A DNA stretch of 64,000 bases, taken from contig NZ_BNJJ01000009.1 of the NCBI RefSeq assembly GCF_016587435.1, positions 248,001-312,000 on the forward strand, written 5' to 3'. The DNA comes from Dictyobacter formicarum (lineage in GTDB: Bacteria; Chloroflexota; Ktedonobacteria; Ktedonobacterales; Ktedonobacteraceae). The notes beneath the pieces are model-generated. The model was not told the DNA's origin, did no database searches, and worked only from the letters and a program-made list of their open reading frames with translations. The position numbers and the translations under genes are program-made. Shown one piece after another: positions 5,804 through 63,503 of this stretch (the stretch's first letter is position 1; the number at the start of each line of letters is the position of its first letter).

Positions 5804-5980
5804 ATATTGGTGCGGCAGGTGCGCATGGAGCACCTGCCGCACCAATATGTTAAGAGTGTGTCTGAAAGCTATGCTTTTCGCGCCTGCGGCCCCTGACGCT
5901 ACGCGCCTGCGGCGCTCAACATGTTTTATGTGATTGTGAAAAACGTGCGCCAGGCGCACGTTTTTCACAATCACATAAAA
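5804..5980 (+). repeat. palindromic element, copy 2 (composite: two palindromes around the core)
   Basis: Left palindrome: 19-nt arms 5804-5822 and 5830-5848. Then a linker AAGAGTGTGTCTGAAAGC and the core (5877-5920) with two CGCC-TGC-GGCG-like stem-loops ending in GGCGCTCAAC. Right palindrome: perfect 28-nt arms 5924-5951 and 5953-5980 around one base. The same order of parts, including the linker, recurs at 53648-53830 with different palindrome sequences. Further short GC-rich inverted repeats follow to about 6020. It lies between convergent genes, consistent with a bidirectional terminator role. Confidence 0.88.
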
Positions 5981-19574: not shown

Positions 19575-19720
19575 ACAACCTGCGCATGGGGAACGCAGGC
19601 GTCCCCACTCTCTTCATGGTTAGTGCAGCAGGTGCGCAAATGCGCACCTGCTGCACTAACCATGAAGAGACCTTTTGAGCGCCGAAGGCGCGTAGCGTCA
19701 TAGGTGCTGACGAGCATGCC
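19575..19720 (-). repeat. palindromic element, copy 3 (reverse orientation)
   Basis: Palindrome arms 19609-19638 and 19641-19670 are perfect 30-nt complements with two bases between. The core lies at 19677-19720 in reverse (complement: TGACGCTACGCGCCTTCGGCGCTCAAAA and variants upstream). On the other side is a GGGGACGCCTGCGTTCCCC-type inverted block that also flanks the copy near 53.8 kb. It separates convergent genes. Confidence 0.85.
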
Positions 19721-43952: not shown

Positions 43953-44669
43953 ATGCCGAAATCACTTAGCATTTCGCAGTTTGGATCCAGACATCAGTTT
44001 GTCAGGACTGTCGCAAGACTAGTTGTAATACTAACTGCTTTTGTTTTCATGCTGCTTGGCAGTGTTTTCTTTACTGATGTACATGGAGCTTTCGCTGCAA
44101 CTGCTTGTGCTAAAGGAGACAAATCGTATACTGTTCAATCTGGCGATACATTGGATGCTATTGCTCAGAGTAATCACACGACCTGGCAGAATCTGGTTGC
44201 GCACAATAAATTGACGGATGGGAATGTTATTTTTGTTAACCAGACTATTTGCATCCCGGTCAAAGCTGCTACCAAGCCTGGAGCTCCAGTAACCAAGCCT
44301 GTTTCCCAGGCCGTACATGGCACAGCTAACATTTTCCCTGCAGGTCAGTGCACCTGGTGGGCGGATAATCGTTATCACCAGTTGACCGGTATTTATGTTC
44401 CCTGGATGACCAACTCGGATGCTAAGATGTGGGTTACGAGGGCTCATCAGTACCATTGGAAAGTTTCGACCACTCCTCGCGTTGGCGCTATTATGCAGCT
44501 CAATGCTTGGGTGCAAGGTGCTGGTTCGTATGGTCACGTAGGGGTTGTTGAGAGTATACAGGGTAAAGGACGTTTCACAGTCAGTCAGATGAACTGGGTT
44601 AGCCTTGGTGTGGAGTCTCGATCTCAGTTTTCTGTGGGCCCTGGTGTATTCTTCATCACTGCCAACTAG
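43953..44669 (+). CDS. secreted LysM-CHAP peptidoglycan hydrolase, paralogue 1
   Basis: 238 residues. A signal peptide or anchor (about 20-50, ending in AFAATA) is followed by one LysM domain (CAKGDKSYTVQSGDTLDAIA ... NVIFVNQTIC, 52-100), a Pro/Thr-rich linker, and a CHAP domain (125-238). The CHAP catalytic Cys133 (GQCTWWA) and His195 (GHVGVVE) are visible. Such enzymes cut amide bonds in peptidoglycan during growth or cell separation. It is paired with a paralogue 250 bases downstream. ATG 43953 follows AAGGAG. Confidence 0.9.
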   Translation: MPKSLSISQFGSRHQFVRTVARLVVILTAFVFMLLGSVFFTDVHGAFAATACAKGDKSYTVQSGDTLDAIAQSNHTTWQNLVAHNKLTDGNVIFVNQTICIPVKAATKPGAPVTKPVSQAVHGTANIFPAGQCTWWADNRYHQLTGIYVPWMTNSDAKMWVTRAHQYHWKVSTTPRVGAIMQLNAWVQGAGSYGHVGVVESIQGKGRFTVSQMNWVSLGVESRSQFSVGPGVFFITAN

Positions 44670-44925
44670 TCTAATTGATGCAATTGGGGCTGGACTATGT
44701 CTGGCCTCTTTTTTTATGCCCTTTTTTCTGGCTGTTTACTTTTATATTAAATTCTTATAAAAAGATTTAGCTGGATCTTAACTTTGTATCTCCCTTTTTT
44801 CCTATGTTTCATCATATTTCATGACGATTCGCCGTAATTACTCTAATATATGCATTGACATACATTTATTTATGGTAGCAGGTAATGGAGCCTGTGTTGT
44901 TTTGAGGAAAAGAGGAGAAGTCCAT

Positions 44926-45663
44926 TTGTTATCTACTAAGAATCATCAGCGTATCTGGACGTATTTGAATCAGCATCGTGCAGTGAGTATTATTGCTGGT
45001 CATGTGGTGGTGGTGACGGTTCTGGGGCTGGTCTGGTTGAGCACTGCTTTTGCGCCGGCTTTATTTAGTGCGCTGGCCCAGGCTCCCTGCGCTAAGAGTG
45101 ATCAGACTTATATGGTGCGAGGAGGCGATACTCTGGGATCGATTGCCGCCGCGCATGCTACGACCTGGCAGAGCCTGGCTTCTTATAACCATCTGGCTAA
45201 TCCAAATATCATTTTTGTGAATCAGCGTATTTGCATTCAGTCCCATGGCGTTGTTAAAGGGAATCCAACGGGTAACCAGCCTATTGTACCCGTGGGGCTG
45301 GCCGCCGTGCGAGGTCGAGTTAATCCATTTGCTTATGGACAGTGTACCTGGTGGGCCAGTCAGCGCTATTTTCAGCTACATGGTTTTTATGTTCCCTGGG
45401 CCACCAACGCTAATGCCTGGCAGTGGCAGAATCGGGCGCTGGAGTTTCACTGGCATGTGTCATCTCTCCCATCGGTGGGATCCATTATGAATCTGCAGCC
45501 AGGGGTGCAGGGGGCTCAAGGGTTGGGCCATGTGGCGGTAGTCGAGATGGTGATGAGCAATGGGCATGTGCTTGCCAGTAGTATGAACTGGGGCCCGAAT
45601 TATTCACAGGTAACCAATTTCGAGTTCTATCCTGGCCCTGGAGTCTCCTTTATCTCAGCTTAA
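44926..45663 (+). CDS. secreted LysM-CHAP peptidoglycan hydrolase, paralogue 2
   Basis: I prefer TTG 44926 (GAGGAG upstream), which gives 245 residues with an N terminus like the sister protein; the frame runs back to ATG 44821. A membrane or signal segment (about 20-48), one LysM domain with two Cys at its ends (55-103), a Gly/Pro linker and a CHAP domain are visible. The catalytic residues Cys140 (GQCTWWA) and His202 (GHVAVVE) are present. The two paralogues share domain order and about half of their residues by eye. A terminator hairpin follows, so the downstream sigma-RNAP operon is separately expressed. Confidence 0.88.
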   Translation: MLSTKNHQRIWTYLNQHRAVSIIAGHVVVVTVLGLVWLSTAFAPALFSALAQAPCAKSDQTYMVRGGDTLGSIAAAHATTWQSLASYNHLANPNIIFVNQRICIQSHGVVKGNPTGNQPIVPVGLAAVRGRVNPFAYGQCTWWASQRYFQLHGFYVPWATNANAWQWQNRALEFHWHVSSLPSVGSIMNLQPGVQGAQGLGHVAVVEMVMSNGHVLASSMNWGPNYSQVTNFEFYPGPGVSFISA

Positions 45664-46036: not shown

Positions 46037-46138
46037 GCATCGTGCCTTCGACCCCTGATAGTTCGTGCTTTCGGCGCTCAAAATTATTTATAATGAGTTG
46101 CCAGCGTACTGTTGGCAACTCATTATAAATAATTTTGA
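46037..46138 (+). repeat. palindromic element, copy 4
   Basis: A core variant (about 46040-46080: CGTGCCTTCGACCCCTGA, then TTCGTGCTTTCGGCGCTCAA) is followed by palindrome arms 46078-46103 and 46113-46138, 26 nt each, perfect. The element lies about 75 bases before the ECF sigma/RNAP operon. Confidence 0.82.
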
Positions 46139-46214
46139 TAAATCCTCTTTTTTGTGAACTTTTAGCTGCCACATGGTGTCTATTGAGCGAATAGGCTGAT
46201 AAAGACTAAAGGAG

Positions 46215-46799
46215 TTGCTGGAACGGGTGCGTGCCCATGATACGGCAGCCTTTGAGATGTTGTCGAGTCGTTATCGAACATCGGTGTATTGGCATGTCTT
46301 TGCATGCGTTCATGATGCGGACGCGGCGGAGGATGTGGTGCAGGAGGTTTTTTTATTGCTCTGGCTACGGGCGGAGCAGTGGCAGGGGCATGGCGCGCTG
46401 CACAGTTGGCTCTTGCGCATCGCCCATAATCAGGCTTTAAACTATCTGCGCTCGGTGCGCAGGCGTCGCCAGTTGCCTCTGGATGTACCTGTAGAGGTTA
46501 CGGAGGATGGAAATGAGCATGAGTGTATCCCTGATTGGATGGTGGATCAGCAGGCCCTTGAACCTGGTCTGTTACTGGTGCAATGGGAGCATCAGCAATT
46601 GTTGCAGGGGCTGATTGAGGGTTTGCCAGCGGAGAAGCGTGAGGTTTTTCGCCTGGTCCACGATGGAGATATGGGTTTGCAGCAGGTCGCTGACATACTC
46701 TCGATTCCAACTGGTACGGTGAAGTCGCGTTTGCACTATGCTACTAAACGACTTGCTCGCCAATGGTCTGATCTGAATAAGGATGAGGAGGATCTATAA
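46215..46799 (+). CDS. ECF-type sigma factor coupled to the fused RNA polymerase
   Basis: 194 residues. The family match begins at LLERVRAHDTAAFEML, so TTG 46215 or GTG 46227 is the start; AAAGGAG lies directly before TTG. Region 2 shows YRTSVYWHVFACV, DAEDVVQEVFLLLW and the helix GALHSWLLRIAHNQALNYLR; region 4 shows LPAEKREVFRLVHDGDMGLQQVADIL and GTVKSRLHYATKRL. The stop TAA (46797-46799) overlaps the ATG of the next gene by one base (TAATG), so translation is coupled. A sigma factor co-made with its own polymerase core is the simplest reading. Confidence 0.92.
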   Translation: MLERVRAHDTAAFEMLSSRYRTSVYWHVFACVHDADAAEDVVQEVFLLLWLRAEQWQGHGALHSWLLRIAHNQALNYLRSVRRRRQLPLDVPVEVTEDGNEHECIPDWMVDQQALEPGLLLVQWEHQQLLQGLIEGLPAEKREVFRLVHDGDMGLQQVADILSIPTGTVKSRLHYATKRLARQWSDLNKDEEDL

Positions 46800-49700
46800 T
46801 GAGCCGTGAGCTGTTGGCTGATTGGCACAAAGCTACTTTTGAGCAGTGTATCCATGAGTGGTTACCCGCGTTGCTGGCTGAGCGTTTGCCGCTGGTGGGC
46901 TACCAGGTTAATTCGACCGGTACTTATACCTATCAGATGCATCTGACATTGTCTTCTGGGCATGAGGAAGTGACGGTCACGTATCAGGATTTGCCGCAGT
47001 CAGATGCTGAGGGGGTGTTTGTATTGGATGGAGAGCGCTATGTGGTGGTCCCCTATGCTTCAGGCGATGATCTGGCTGAGGCTGATATCTTTTGTGTAGG
47101 CGAGCAACTACTACACTATTGCCAGCAACTCCTGAGTTACCATGTGCCGGATGCTGTGCCGTGGAGTGAAGCTCTGGTGCGGGCATGGCTGCCGATAGAG
47201 CGCTGGATGCGCGAGTTCTTTGGGGTCGATAAACGCCAGTTGTCCGATCTGCCATCGACAGCGCAGCGTTTGGATGAGACTAACTGGCTGGCGACCCGGC
47301 AGCATCTGTTTCGTCTGTATGTCAAGGATCGTACCCGGCTCTTTACTCCAGCCCACTTTGGGCGTGTCTGTCCGTTCGAGACTCCAGAGGGTCCAAATAT
47401 TGGGCGCATCTTCCCTCTGGTCCTTGGGGCGGCTATTCGGTCCGGTAAACTTGTGGTGCTGGATGATCGACCCGCTGCAATGCTGGGACCAGAGGCATCC
47501 ATGATTCCTTTGCTGGAGCATGATCATCCACGTAGCCTGCTGATGGGCGCAAATATGCTGCGCCAGTGGTTGCAGCCACCGCAGCCTGAGGTGGCCCTGG
47601 TGCAGAGCGGCAATGAGCCGGTGGCACCAGATTTCTGGTGCGGTCGTAATTTTTTGACGGCTTTGACTTCCTGGGGTGTGGATACCTTTGATGATGGGAT
47701 TCTCTTGAGCGCTTCGGCGGCCAGGCGGCTGGATTATCCACGCGCTGTTGAGCCGGGCGATAAGTTGAGCAATCGCCATGGTATTAAGGGGGTGGTGAGC
47801 CGCATTGTGCCGGATGAGCAGATGCCGCACCTGGCGGATGGGACACCGGTCGAGCTGGTTTATAATGTTGCTAGTCTGCATGTGCATCAGTCGTTCGGTG
47901 TGGTGTGGGAGGCTGTGCTGGGGCGTATCGCGCATGCACAGGGTATACCGACTGTGGTTCCTCCTTTTGCGTCTCCGGATGAGCAGTCAATACGGGCCGC
48001 GCTGGCTGCCAGTGGGTTGCCGAAAGATGGTATGGAAACGCTGACTGTCGGTTCGGCCGGCGAGCCTGTGCAGCAGCGCTGTACCGTAGGTTGGATCTAT
48101 TGGGGGCGCCTGACACATATGGCACAGGAAAAGTTGCAGGCAGGATTGAATCCTCAACGCGGGCAGCGGCGCGGTGAGCTTGAGTACTTTGCCTTGCGTA
48201 ATGGTGGCGCGTTTGAGAATATTCGTGAGCAGTTCCATTCCTGCGCACTGGCTCCGCAGGAGCTTGCTGATGATTCTGGTTCTGAGGTGGGACAACAAGC
48301 GCCCGCGCTGGCTCCACAGTTTATGTCTGTGGCGCGACGTCTGGCGGCCATTGGCATCCATGCCGAACTGACGGCTGAACGGCGACTGGTGTTCAGGCTG
48401 GCCCCTCCCACCGGTGAGGTGCTGCAACTGGCCCGGCCTGTTGCTCATCCCTGGTTGAAGAACCAGCAGTTGACGAGCATTGGTGCGTATCGCGTCTGCC
48501 ATGAGTTGGCGGAATATCCAGCGTTGGTGGCAGCCAATACGCGCTTACAACGCATCCTTGCCAGTCAGGCGCCGGAAAGTCTGGCTCGCCAGGCGCTGGA
48601 CCAGTTGACCATGCATGTCCATGCCTTCTGTCGGGCTCTGATCACGCCCACTCAACTGCGCTTTAATGCCTTTACCTCGTCCTCGTCGCGCGCGGTAGTC
48701 GTGCCTACGCTGGATATACACTATGACCAGGTTGGCATACCGGAGGAGATGGCCTGGTTCCTCTTTGCTCCGCAGTTGAAGCGCGAGCTGGATGCTGCGG
48801 AGGTTGAACAGCGTAGCGAGCGTGCCAGCCAGCTGCTGGATCGTCTGATGGAGGTTGCCTGGGTTATACTCAATCGTGCACCCGTTTTTGATCTACGCAC
48901 CTTTGTGGCTTGTCACCCGGTGCGTTATCCTGATGCTGCGTTACATGTCCATCCCCTGGTGAGCCGCCAGATACAGGCCGATTTTGATGGCGATCAGGTG
49001 GCGGTCTTCTTGCCGCTGAGCGCAGGCGCGCAGCAAGAGGCCGGCGCGCGCCTGTCGGTCGTTGCCCAGCTGAGTCATAATCCTGCCTTAATAAAGGCTC
49101 TGCTGCCCTCACACGAGATCATGTGGGGGCTGGCTCACATGAGCCAGACATCCGAAGGTAGATCCGAACTGGTTACCTTGCTCAATCCATCCCTGGCCAA
49201 TGTATTGTCTGATATCATCCTGACCCAGGCCATGCTGCTGGAACAGTTGCAAATGTTGCTCCAACAGCATGGTTCTGAGCGGGTGGTACAGACGCTTGAG
49301 CGCGTCTGGCGGCGCGGCTTTGAGCAGGCTCGGCTCGCTGGCGTCTCGATCAATCCTTTTATTGGTAGCGATGTACGACAGCATCGACCCCCCACTGATG
49401 TTCGTGCCAAGGATTGGTCACACTGGCTGGCTGAGCAAGCCGAATACCTGGGGGCCAGTGTCGATTATGCAGATCCCGATCAGGGTACGCAGCTATTGAC
49501 GGTGAAGAGCGGCGCCCTGGGCGATATTCCTCACCTGCTAGCCCTCTACGCTGGCCAGGAGACCGTCTCAGATGTCCATGGAACGCCGGTGGCAATTACA
49601 CATGGTTATTGCGATGGTCTGACCGCTCAGGAGCTGTATGCCCAGGCCGTGGGGGCCCGGCAATCTTTTGCCGATGTGTTACAGGAATGGGACATGATTG

Positions 49701-49858
49701 GCAAGCAGATTCAGGCGCAAAATAGAACAAAAAGCTACCATGTGCTTGGACGCGCCATGTGCTCCTCCGAGCCCGGCATGGTCTTTGCCCATGCCGCTTT
49801 GCAGCGCGAGGTCGATCCCCTCATCGACACCGATAGCCGGCTCTTCGTTGGCCTATAA
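46799..49858 (+). CDS. single-chain beta-beta' fused RNA polymerase-like protein
   Basis: 1019 residues, about 40 % of normal beta plus beta'. The beta half (1-480) has GVFVLDGER...VVPY, REFFGVDKRQLSD, CPFETPEGPNIG (191-202), GDKLSNRHGIKGV with the two catalytic-site lysines K322 and K330, and GWIYWGRL plus RRGELEYFALRNGGAF (457-472). The beta' half (about 500-1019) has RAVVVPTLDIHYDQVGIP, ILNRAP (690-695), HVHPL and QADFDGDQVAVF with metal-binding D728, D730 and D732, then VKSGALGDI and a bridge-helix-like GARQSFADVL (952-961). Beta lobes and flap, the beta' zinc ribbon and clamp, and most of the trigger loop are missing or unrecognisable. The gene is coupled to an ECF sigma gene. It probably transcribes specific targets; an inactive role is less likely because all catalytic acids and lysines remain. 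Confidence 0.92.
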   Translation: MSRELLADWHKATFEQCIHEWLPALLAERLPLVGYQVNSTGTYTYQMHLTLSSGHEEVTVTYQDLPQSDAEGVFVLDGERYVVVPYASGDDLAEADIFCVGEQLLHYCQQLLSYHVPDAVPWSEALVRAWLPIERWMREFFGVDKRQLSDLPSTAQRLDETNWLATRQHLFRLYVKDRTRLFTPAHFGRVCPFETPEGPNIGRIFPLVLGAAIRSGKLVVLDDRPAAMLGPEASMIPLLEHDHPRSLLMGANMLRQWLQPPQPEVALVQSGNEPVAPDFWCGRNFLTALTSWGVDTFDDGILLSASAARRLDYPRAVEPGDKLSNRHGIKGVVSRIVPDEQMPHLADGTPVELVYNVASLHVHQSFGVVWEAVLGRIAHAQGIPTVVPPFASPDEQSIRAALAASGLPKDGMETLTVGSAGEPVQQRCTVGWIYWGRLTHMAQEKLQAGLNPQRGQRRGELEYFALRNGGAFENIREQFHSCALAPQELADDSGSEVGQQAPALAPQFMSVARRLAAIGIHAELTAERRLVFRLAPPTGEVLQLARPVAHPWLKNQQLTSIGAYRVCHELAEYPALVAANTRLQRILASQAPESLARQALDQLTMHVHAFCRALITPTQLRFNAFTSSSSRAVVVPTLDIHYDQVGIPEEMAWFLFAPQLKRELDAAEVEQRSERASQLLDRLMEVAWVILNRAPVFDLRTFVACHPVRYPDAALHVHPLVSRQIQADFDGDQVAVFLPLSAGAQQEAGARLSVVAQLSHNPALIKALLPSHEIMWGLAHMSQTSEGRSELVTLLNPSLANVLSDIILTQAMLLEQLQMLLQQHGSERVVQTLERVWRRGFEQARLAGVSINPFIGSDVRQHRPPTDVRAKDWSHWLAEQAEYLGASVDYADPDQGTQLLTVKSGALGDIPHLLALYAGQETVSDVHGTPVAITHGYCDGLTAQELYAQAVGARQSFADVLQEWDMIGKQIQAQNRTKSYHVLGRAMCSSEPGMVFAHAALQREVDPLIDTDSRLFVGL

Positions 49859-49936: not shown

Positions 49937-50001
49937 TTTAATATAGTCAATAGTGCAAAAAGTGCGCTCAGCGCACTTTTTGCACTATTGACTATATTAA
50001 A
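49937..50001. repeat. long palindrome, 32-nt arms with 1-nt spacer (no core)
   Basis: 49937-49968 and 49970-50001 are perfect complements around C49969. It directly follows the fused-polymerase gene. The usual core is absent, but a GC-rich block with GCGGGTGCG... lies between the gene and the palindrome. Confidence 0.85.
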
Positions 50002-53647: not shown

Positions 53648-53830
53648 TTATACAGTTTTGCCGAAAGCGCGCTGTGCGCGCTTTCGGCAAAACTGTATAA
53701 GAGCACGTCTGAAAGCCATGCTGTTCGCGCCTTCTGCCCCTGACGCTACGCGCCTTCGGCGCTCAAAAGATTTTTCATGGGTGGTGCAGCAGATGCGTAT
53801 TCGCGCACCTGCTGCACCACCCATGAAAAA
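53648..53830 (+). repeat. palindromic element, copy 5 (composite)
   Basis: Left palindrome: 25-nt arms 53648-53672 and 53676-53700 (3-nt centre). Linker AAGAGCACGTCTGAAAGC, then the core 53726-53768 ending GGCGCTCAAAAG. Right palindrome: 27-nt arms 53771-53797 and 53804-53830 with one mismatch. The order of parts equals that at 5804-5980. A GGGGACGCCTGCGTTCCCC block follows, as at 19.6 kb. The element lies between convergent genes. Confidence 0.9.
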
Positions 53831-57849: not shown

Positions 57850-57918
57850 CAAAGAATATATTTACATTTACTGTTTATTTTCCTGGAAAATAAACAGTAA
57901 ATGTAAATATATTCTTTG
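57850..57918. repeat. long palindrome, 34-nt arms with 1-nt spacer
   Basis: 57850-57883 and 57885-57918 are perfect complements around T57884. It is AT-rich, without the core element. It is the longest perfect palindrome in the window. The remainder of 57751-58101 holds no gene. Confidence 0.9.
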
Positions 57919-63398: not shown

Positions 63399-63503
63399 GC
63401 CTGCGGCCCTGACGATTCGCACCTTCAGTGCTCAAAACAGTTTTTATGTAGTGGTGCAAACCGTGCGCACTGCGCACGGTTTGCACCACTACATAAAAAC
63501 TGT
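63399..63503 (+). repeat. palindromic element, copy 6
   Basis: A core variant (63399-63436: CTGCGGCCCTGACGATTCGC, then ACCTTCAGTGCTCAAAAC) is followed by perfect 33-nt arms 63437-63469 and 63471-63503 around C63470. It follows the response-regulator remnant. Confidence 0.87.

Follow-up and report, generated by a model that had tools for sequence, protein, structure and literature searches.

RNA polymerases that carry both double-psi barrels on one chain are already on record from phages, from YonO-like genes (which also occur in the main genomes of firmicutes and cyanobacteria) and as fusions of RpoB with RpoC, as set out in three reports (PMC5467207, PMC11515920, PMC7481178). Natural RpoB-RpoC fusions are cited there from Wolinella succinogenes and Candidatus Adlerbacteria (PMC11515920), and YonO is presented as a processive DNA-dependent polymerase (PMC5467207). 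Here we analyse a stretch of 64,000 nucleotides from Dictyobacter formicarum (contig NZ_BNJJ01000009.1, positions 248,001 to 312,000; hereafter the window, in whose own numbering all coordinates are given), where a gene for an extracytoplasmic function (ECF) sigma factor (46215..46799, + strand) runs directly into a gene for a single-chain beta-beta' RNA polymerase of 1019 residues (46799..49858, + strand). A preliminary description of this locus had proposed a compact second polymerase with its own ECF sigma factor, allowing that fused forms might already be known.

The two genes probably form a self-activating transcription module in which a dedicated sigma factor serves a single-chain minimal core, the latter acting as a second polymerase. 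As a rule a bacterium has a single RNA polymerase core; another on the chromosome, equipped with a dedicated sigma factor and promoter and spread across several phyla, would break that rule. We found no report of such a combination in the open-licence literature, coverage of which was partial, so that an earlier mention is possible; Iyer and Aravind reportedly surveyed unusual bacterial polymerases in 2012 (J Struct Biol).

A sigma gene joined to a single-chain polymerase gene

Both of the frames described earlier are present and share a single base (46799) of the sequence TAATG, the sigma open reading frame (ORF; 46215-46799) encoding 194 residues when counted from a TTG and the polymerase ORF (46799-49858) 1019 residues from an ATG. 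The shorter ORF contains Sigma70_r2 and Sigma70_r4_2, both above the Pfam cut-off, and scores 82.3 bits with the NCBIfam sigma70-ECF model against a cut-off of 42.9, its product having, as ECF factors do, regions 2 and 4 but neither 1.1 nor 3. In the longer, Rpb2_3, Rpb2_6 and Rpb1_2 follow one another in that order, all above the Pfam cut-off, which agrees with the succession of beta and then beta' motifs noted at the outset; the motifs themselves sit at the positions expected from homology. By profile alignment with hhalign most of the family's length can be matched to beta and beta', and the NCBIfam scores for rpoB (145.6 of 801 bits) and rpoC (86.3 of 963.5 bits) lie below the curated cut-offs for the canonical core. 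Pfam, NCBIfam, hhalign and structure between them recover the features of the two-barrel superfamily, namely both double-psi barrels, DFDGD and the beta lysines. A missing barrel or disrupted catalytic residues, which the preliminary description had named as fatal to its proposal, were seen neither in the sequence nor in the predicted models. By its sequence and predicted fold, the single-chain protein belongs to the two-barrel (multisubunit-type) RNA polymerase superfamily.

Conservation was counted over 47 full sigma-polymerase pairs, the window's included, and all features of the chain are on the + strand. The catalytic Mg-binding aspartates of DFDGD (residues 728-732; 48980..48994) are kept almost throughout, D728 in 45 of the 47 members and D730 and D732 in every one. 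Motif conservation also places the beta active-site lysines K322 and K330 in GDKLSNRHGIKG (residues 320-331; 47756..47791); K330 is present in 46/47 and K322 in 39/47, being replaced by arginine in six members and by alanine and threonine in one each. The bridge helix (residues 943-974; 49625..49720) was placed by profile alignment and forms one long helix in the predicted model, with R954 present in 33/47 and G952 in 23/47. The rifampicin-pocket positions are variable across the family.

The association with a sigma gene is nearly constant. From 76 pooled locus records, 15 were dropped as duplicates (identical in the last 400 residues), and a sigma gene lies upstream of the polymerase gene in 59 of the 61 distinct loci that were kept. 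It is on the same strand, at most 350 bp upstream and often overlapping, in 53 of these 61, and stands 1.2-2.1 kb upstream with one gene between in six others (L007, L016, L128, L129, L133 and L135, the sigma frame of L016 being split in two). The two loci in which no upstream sigma gene was found are an N-truncated copy with a stop (L092, whose upstream region is L148) and a contig-end fragment (L138). Pairwise distances of polymerase and sigma correlate across the 47 pairs with r = 0.93, a value reached in none of 2000 permutations (maximum 0.20); shared species history contributes to this correlation. In all ten genomes examined no sigma matches the sigma profile better than the paired one, although many other ECF genes match too. 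In close pairs, the ratio of nonsynonymous to synonymous substitution rates (dN/dS) of the polymerase falls within 0.11-0.20 every time (13 of 13), that of sigma within 0.08-0.45, and the polymerase is, by this measure, under purifying selection along its ~1000-residue chain.

Of at least 2994 relatives (E <= 1e-5), 116 of the 119 listed align over 97-100% of the polymerase query, and chance is excluded as the origin of so long a frame because nearly all of the relatives listed align at full length. Among the matches listed, the closest named relatives are those of Dictyobacter sp. S3.2.2.5, whose polymerase and sigma are 80% and 90% identical, respectively, to the window's, and their locus tags adjoin (KDH_48730 and KDH_48740). 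A scan of bacterial genome contigs gave at least 17 family loci among the best 80, confirmed as ORFs, the other 63 appearing, by their partial matches, to be ordinary rpoB/rpoC. The carriers appear to have a polymerase of the usual kind as well: a separate rpoB-type match lies on another contig (open frames of 829-1494 residues) in 13 of 14 carrier genomes checked, the one without such a match (G013) coming from an assembly that may be incomplete. The search for the same pair in other genomes, suggested in the preliminary description, thus succeeded, and of its larger interpretation the pairing, the presence beside a separate rpoB, the fold and the catalytic aspartates are strongly supported by comparison; as a whole, that interpretation is partly supported. 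The conserved promoter, the missing flap and trigger loop and the doubtful sigma start, all treated below, do not figure in the preliminary description.

The copy in the window may itself be past its prime. Its sigma ORF starts at a TTG (46215) that directly abuts AAGGAG, and a 26-bp stretch between AAGGAG and the sigma codons TTG CTG GAA is absent relative to L155, the 5' region of a broken relative (L095, genome G121), where the same stretch carries an ATG and the first sigma codons. For both reasons the TTG is doubtful as a start, so that the frame reported earlier is there but its true beginning is uncertain. From the sequence, the window's sigma gene may have a weak start codon or be silent; the polymerase frame is open. 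The polymerase frame of L095 has three in-frame stops, and the relative in Dictyobacter kobayashii (P0004) has only 663 residues. The ktedonobacterial copies, the window's included, may be decaying; intact copies exist, the pair of Dictyobacter sp. S3.2.2.5 (P0003/P0121) among them.

The promoter ahead of the sigma gene

When the DNA upstream of the sigma genes was aligned within four groups, a single shared block emerged, TGAAC followed by GGTGTC or GGCGTC. It was counted over 59 loci, the window included, with the sigma start fixed by profile; L016, L128 and L135 were left out for their partial sigma, and loci with a gene between were represented by L007, L142 and L144-L146 (L143 being dropped as a copy of L007). 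The exact form TGAAC-N15-GGYGTC precedes sigma in 46 of the 59, the window among them, one further locus has N14, and spacers of any other length between 10 and 20 are absent; the relaxed form (YGAAC, SSYGTC) is found in 54, at N15 in 52 of them. Mononucleotide shuffles gave the motif in none of 200 rounds. Exact copies come from loci of Poribacteria, Latescibacterota, Ktedonobacteraceae, Armatimonadetes, Myxococcales, Phycisphaerales and Hydrogenedentota, related loci not being independent. Counted from TGAACY to GTC, the spacing is 17 bp, which is reported as optimal for M. tuberculosis sigma H (PMC6411747). This ECF-type promoter ahead of the sigma gene is, as read from the sequences, what is new here.

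In the window the promoter TGAAC-N15-GGTGTC of the sigma-polymerase operon lies at 46155..46180 (+ strand), an exact match and the only one with up to one mismatch. At least one such match turned up in 61 of 100 shuffles, and the weight of the window's promoter comes from the other loci because chance alone often gives one match. Across 26 carrier genomes the strict form TGAACYT-N13-GGTGTC has 30 matches, of which 20 are the operon's own and 10 are others, against 7 for a reversed-pattern control; with one mismatch allowed, TGAACYTT-N12-GGTGTC has 35 matches in eight genomes, 8 own and 27 others against 26 for the control. Since non-self matches stand at about the control level, the strict promoter appears mainly to serve the module itself, with the proviso that degenerate targets would be missed.

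A few of the other sites may nevertheless matter. Eight of the ten strict non-self matches are inside ORFs of at least 267 residues, and the remaining two precede tandem pairs of ABC-2 permease genes in the related genomes G027 (L181:2099-5166) and G028 (L182:1380-4555), the Pfam assignment having been made on the former pair only; in G027 the permease ORF starts 96 bp after the motif and in G028 the mechanical ORF start falls just before it. Most of the 23 one-mismatch sites inspected, out of 27, are within ORFs, and one, met again in each of three Latescibacterota genomes, corresponds to the 5' end of a gene's coding sequence. Another recurs in G635 (L190) and G637 (L197), in both of them 58 bp ahead of another sigma gene of ECF type, recognised by reading the sequence, and one in G002 is 41 bp before an ORF. 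The recurring permease and G635/G637 sites, and that in G002, could be real extra promoter targets; it is also possible that those in G635/G637 and G002 are lookalike ECF promoters.

A polymerase without a flap, and how it might be used

Of the two docks for a sigma factor described in PMC6411747, the beta' coiled coil for region 2 and the flap-tip helix for region 4, the family has retained one. Residues 571-613 (48509..48637) match B. subtilis beta' 256-298 with an E value of 1.3e-4 in profile comparison and make up the coiled coil. Where canonical beta has its flap, length comparison leaves a stretch of 16 residues (304-319; 47708..47755), and the same position holds 16-30 residues in 47/47 family members as against 144-276 in 55 canonical beta subunits. 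The central puzzle is that the dock for sigma region 2 is kept and that for region 4 lost, with the promoter geometry standard: either a single-chain holoenzyme positions region 4 differently, or an ordinary core fires the promoter. The chain is also reduced towards its end. The beta' C-terminal end (residues 982-1019; 49742..49855) was placed by structure, alignment of the last segment to E. coli beta' ending near residue 1354, and its sequence signal is weak, the last 40 residues scoring 18.2, which 3 of 100 column shuffles equalled. Between 65 and 88 residues follow R954 in all 47 members, structure assigning them to the beta' C-terminus, and because this segment leaves no room after the bridge helix there is no trigger loop. 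Its absence does not exclude activity, because YonO is reported to be processive although a trigger loop was not detected there (PMC5467207).

In the mechanism that we propose, the ECF sigma factor would recognise TGAAC-N15-GGTGTC directly before its own gene and drive the sigma-polymerase operon, whose second gene would supply a minimal core with both double-psi barrels, the bridge helix, the beta' coiled coil and the beta' C-terminal segment. This core would bind sigma through the coiled coil and transcribe DNA into RNA, so that the cell would have a second polymerase in addition to its own, and the arrangement would amount to positive feedback. With the flap, the hold for region 4, gone and the -35/-10 spacing as in ordinary ECF promoters, the first round of transcription may perhaps be fired by sigma on the host core.

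That last step can be carried further, to a sigma factor that uses the host core only and fires the conserved promoter there, with the single-chain protein as its main target and as an active polymerase that does without it, for example a sigma-independent or RNA-templated one. The flap is missing throughout the family, yet the TGAACY-17-GTC spacing is the one reported to suit M. tuberculosis sigma H best when it works with an ordinary core, whose flap tip is enfolded by region 4 (PMC6411747), and the promoter hardly occurs elsewhere in the carrier genomes. We nonetheless regard this as unlikely, given that the coiled coil is kept and that sigma and polymerase have diverged so closely together, though shared descent adds to the latter. 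Retention of the coiled coil in a protein with no trigger loop would also suit a decoy that holds sigma, in effect an anti-sigma factor made from a polymerase, and the partner does follow sigma in the place where ECF operons often keep an anti-sigma gene; such a decoy would need neither the catalytic aspartates, kept in 45-47 of 47, nor purifying selection along a 1000-residue chain, and we consider it very unlikely. Hardly to be expected, finally, is a selfish or phage-derived module left behind in chromosomes. Its occurrence is patchy, it has its own promoter and few other copies of it, and single-chain polymerases are known from phages (PMC5467207 and PMC7481178), but a pattern-based search of viral contigs confirmed no relative, phage and plasmid records contained no place covering 80% of the polymerase query, no neighbour family besides sigma occurs in more than 3 of 17 loci, and the family clusters by phylum on a quick tree. 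On these null searches a phage or plasmid origin was rejected. Structure searches of viral models returned, among the matches listed, mostly viral polymerases of low identity.

Several observations weigh against a dedicated sigma factor serving a single-chain core. The flap and the trigger loop are missing from every one of the 47 members; secondary active-site residues vary, the NRAP arginine R693 being lost in 11 of 47, K322 in 8 and the bridge-helix R954 in 14, and this variation, together with the possible extra promoter sites, lowers its odds. Twelve of the 59 loci lack the exact promoter motif (L009, L107-L109, L111-L116, L124 and L127), and there is no clear excess of the strict promoter elsewhere in the carrier genomes and no evident regulon. 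In-frame stops interrupt the polymerase gene in six genomes, and in the window itself the sigma start is doubtful for the 26-bp gap relative to L155. A two-gene module of sigma and second polymerase nevertheless seems to us the probable reading. We would advance only tentatively the stronger proposal of a cell-encoded second transcription system complete in two genes, in which a core devoid of flap, trigger loop, alpha and omega, its own sigma factor and a cross-phylum promoter might form a self-sustaining loop separate from the main polymerase. The absence of alpha and omega, which the preliminary description had also proposed, is conjectural, since the host could supply both. If the module is real, it would offer a natural minimal polymerase for probing directly whether flap, trigger loop and alpha are needed. 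With its promoter known, it would also be a candidate orthogonal expression system, and it would show to what extent a multisubunit polymerase can be pared down.

Distribution, surroundings and comparison with known polymerases

Whole-genome searches (E 1e-60) were centred on chosen carriers, and as the larger ones scored 2-4 candidates per genome the frequencies are rough. The gene was found in 22/64 genomes of the phylum of G004 (labelled Gemmatimonadaceae; it also holds G003, labelled Latescibacterota), in 11/84 of that of G001 (Poribacteria), 17/201 of that of G006 (Armatimonadetes), 4/301 of that of G005 (Anaerolineales), 1/294 of that of G009 (Phycisphaerales) and 1/235 of that of G007 (Myxococcales), and in 2/47 genomes of the class of G010 (Ktedonobacteraceae), the Ktedonobacteria and Chloroflexota sets overlapping. 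Genome G014 has two copies of the fused polymerase (C217 and C279), one cut by a contig end. On the quick tree, Poribacteria and Latescibacterota are each set apart from the rest by a single branch (support 99 and 91), while Armatimonadota require three changes and Chloroflexota two, and all groups together nine (minimum 8, shuffled mean 26.3). Because of this clustering by phylum, the sequences favour long-standing residence accompanied by losses over frequent transfer, the deep branches being weak.

Apart from sigma, three neighbour families reach 3/17 loci each. In one Latescibacterota clade a gene intervening between sigma and polymerase has a 597-residue product that resembles an ABC exporter on reading its sequence, and two other intervening genes of this clade gave no Pfam match above cut-off. 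A DksA/TraR zinc-finger gene stands two genes before sigma in one Latescibacterota clade (L005:7217-8251, Pfam on L005 only), with relatives in L007 and L014. A defence system was considered and rejected, PADLOC giving no match for the three proteins submitted. Just upstream of the module in the window are two LysM-CHAP proteins in a row (43953-44669 and 44821-45663, Pfam), and L155 has a relative of the second (74% identity) at the same place. Between the LysM-CHAP gene upstream of the window's module and the promoter is a palindrome with 26-nt arms and a 9-nt loop (46078..46138, no strand assigned), probably a terminator outside the module proper; L095 has, by eye, a different palindrome just before its sigma promoter. 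Further long, near-perfect palindromes of the window lie at 1869-1927, 5924-5980, 19609-19670, 49937-50001, 53648-53700, 53771-53830, 57850-57918 and 63437-63503; with arms of 25-34 nt, loops of 1-9 nt and, in several, an inner core like GTGCA...GTGCGC, the whole set may be dispersed palindromic repeats or long terminators.

L147 (416-6355, - strand; genome G656) encodes what, to judge by its sequence, is a second single-chain polymerase of a different kind: a frame of 1979 residues joins the alpha N-terminal domain, beta and beta' and shows, by eye, trigger-loop-like and bridge-helix-like motifs; its own record reads hypothetical protein, Candidatus Latescibacteria. With its alpha part as query, eight further clusters were retrieved (P0242-P0249; 1913-2015 residues, RpoA, RpoB and RpoC domains, contigs up to 680 kb). 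On the viral contig IMGVR_UViG_3300037277_000065 a frame of 2298 residues (L150:6996-13892, + strand) has beta and then beta' fused, at 32% identity to the L147 protein and with no alpha domain in Pfam.

Set beside known systems, the family sigma resembles ECF factors such as M. tuberculosis sigma H (PMC6411747) in having regions 2 and 4 only and a GAAC-type -35 and GTC-type -10 at 17 bp, but in 59 of 61 loci its gene is accompanied by one for a polymerase, and its strict promoter has no regulon above background. The polymerase shares with RpoB and RpoC the domain order, both barrels, the catalytic motifs, the bridge helix and the beta' coiled coil, whereas its chain has ~1000 residues as against ~2400 for B. 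subtilis beta plus beta' (1193 + 1199), lacks flap and trigger loop and occurs beside a separate rpoB. The polymerase of crAss-like phages likewise fuses beta and beta' motifs in one chain, but is described as not recognisable by the COG0085/COG0086 models (PMC7481178), whereas Pfam and the rpoB/rpoC models of NCBIfam do recognise the family, of which the pattern-based search confirmed no member in viral contigs. YonO, compared here by its description in PMC5467207, is likewise one chain of ~100 kDa with the catalytic aspartates and no trigger loop detected; it is said to have only a few residues in common with multisubunit RNA polymerases, in contrast to the alignment of the family with beta and beta' over most of its length, and what further sets the family apart from it is the dedicated sigma gene and promoter by which its polymerase is accompanied.

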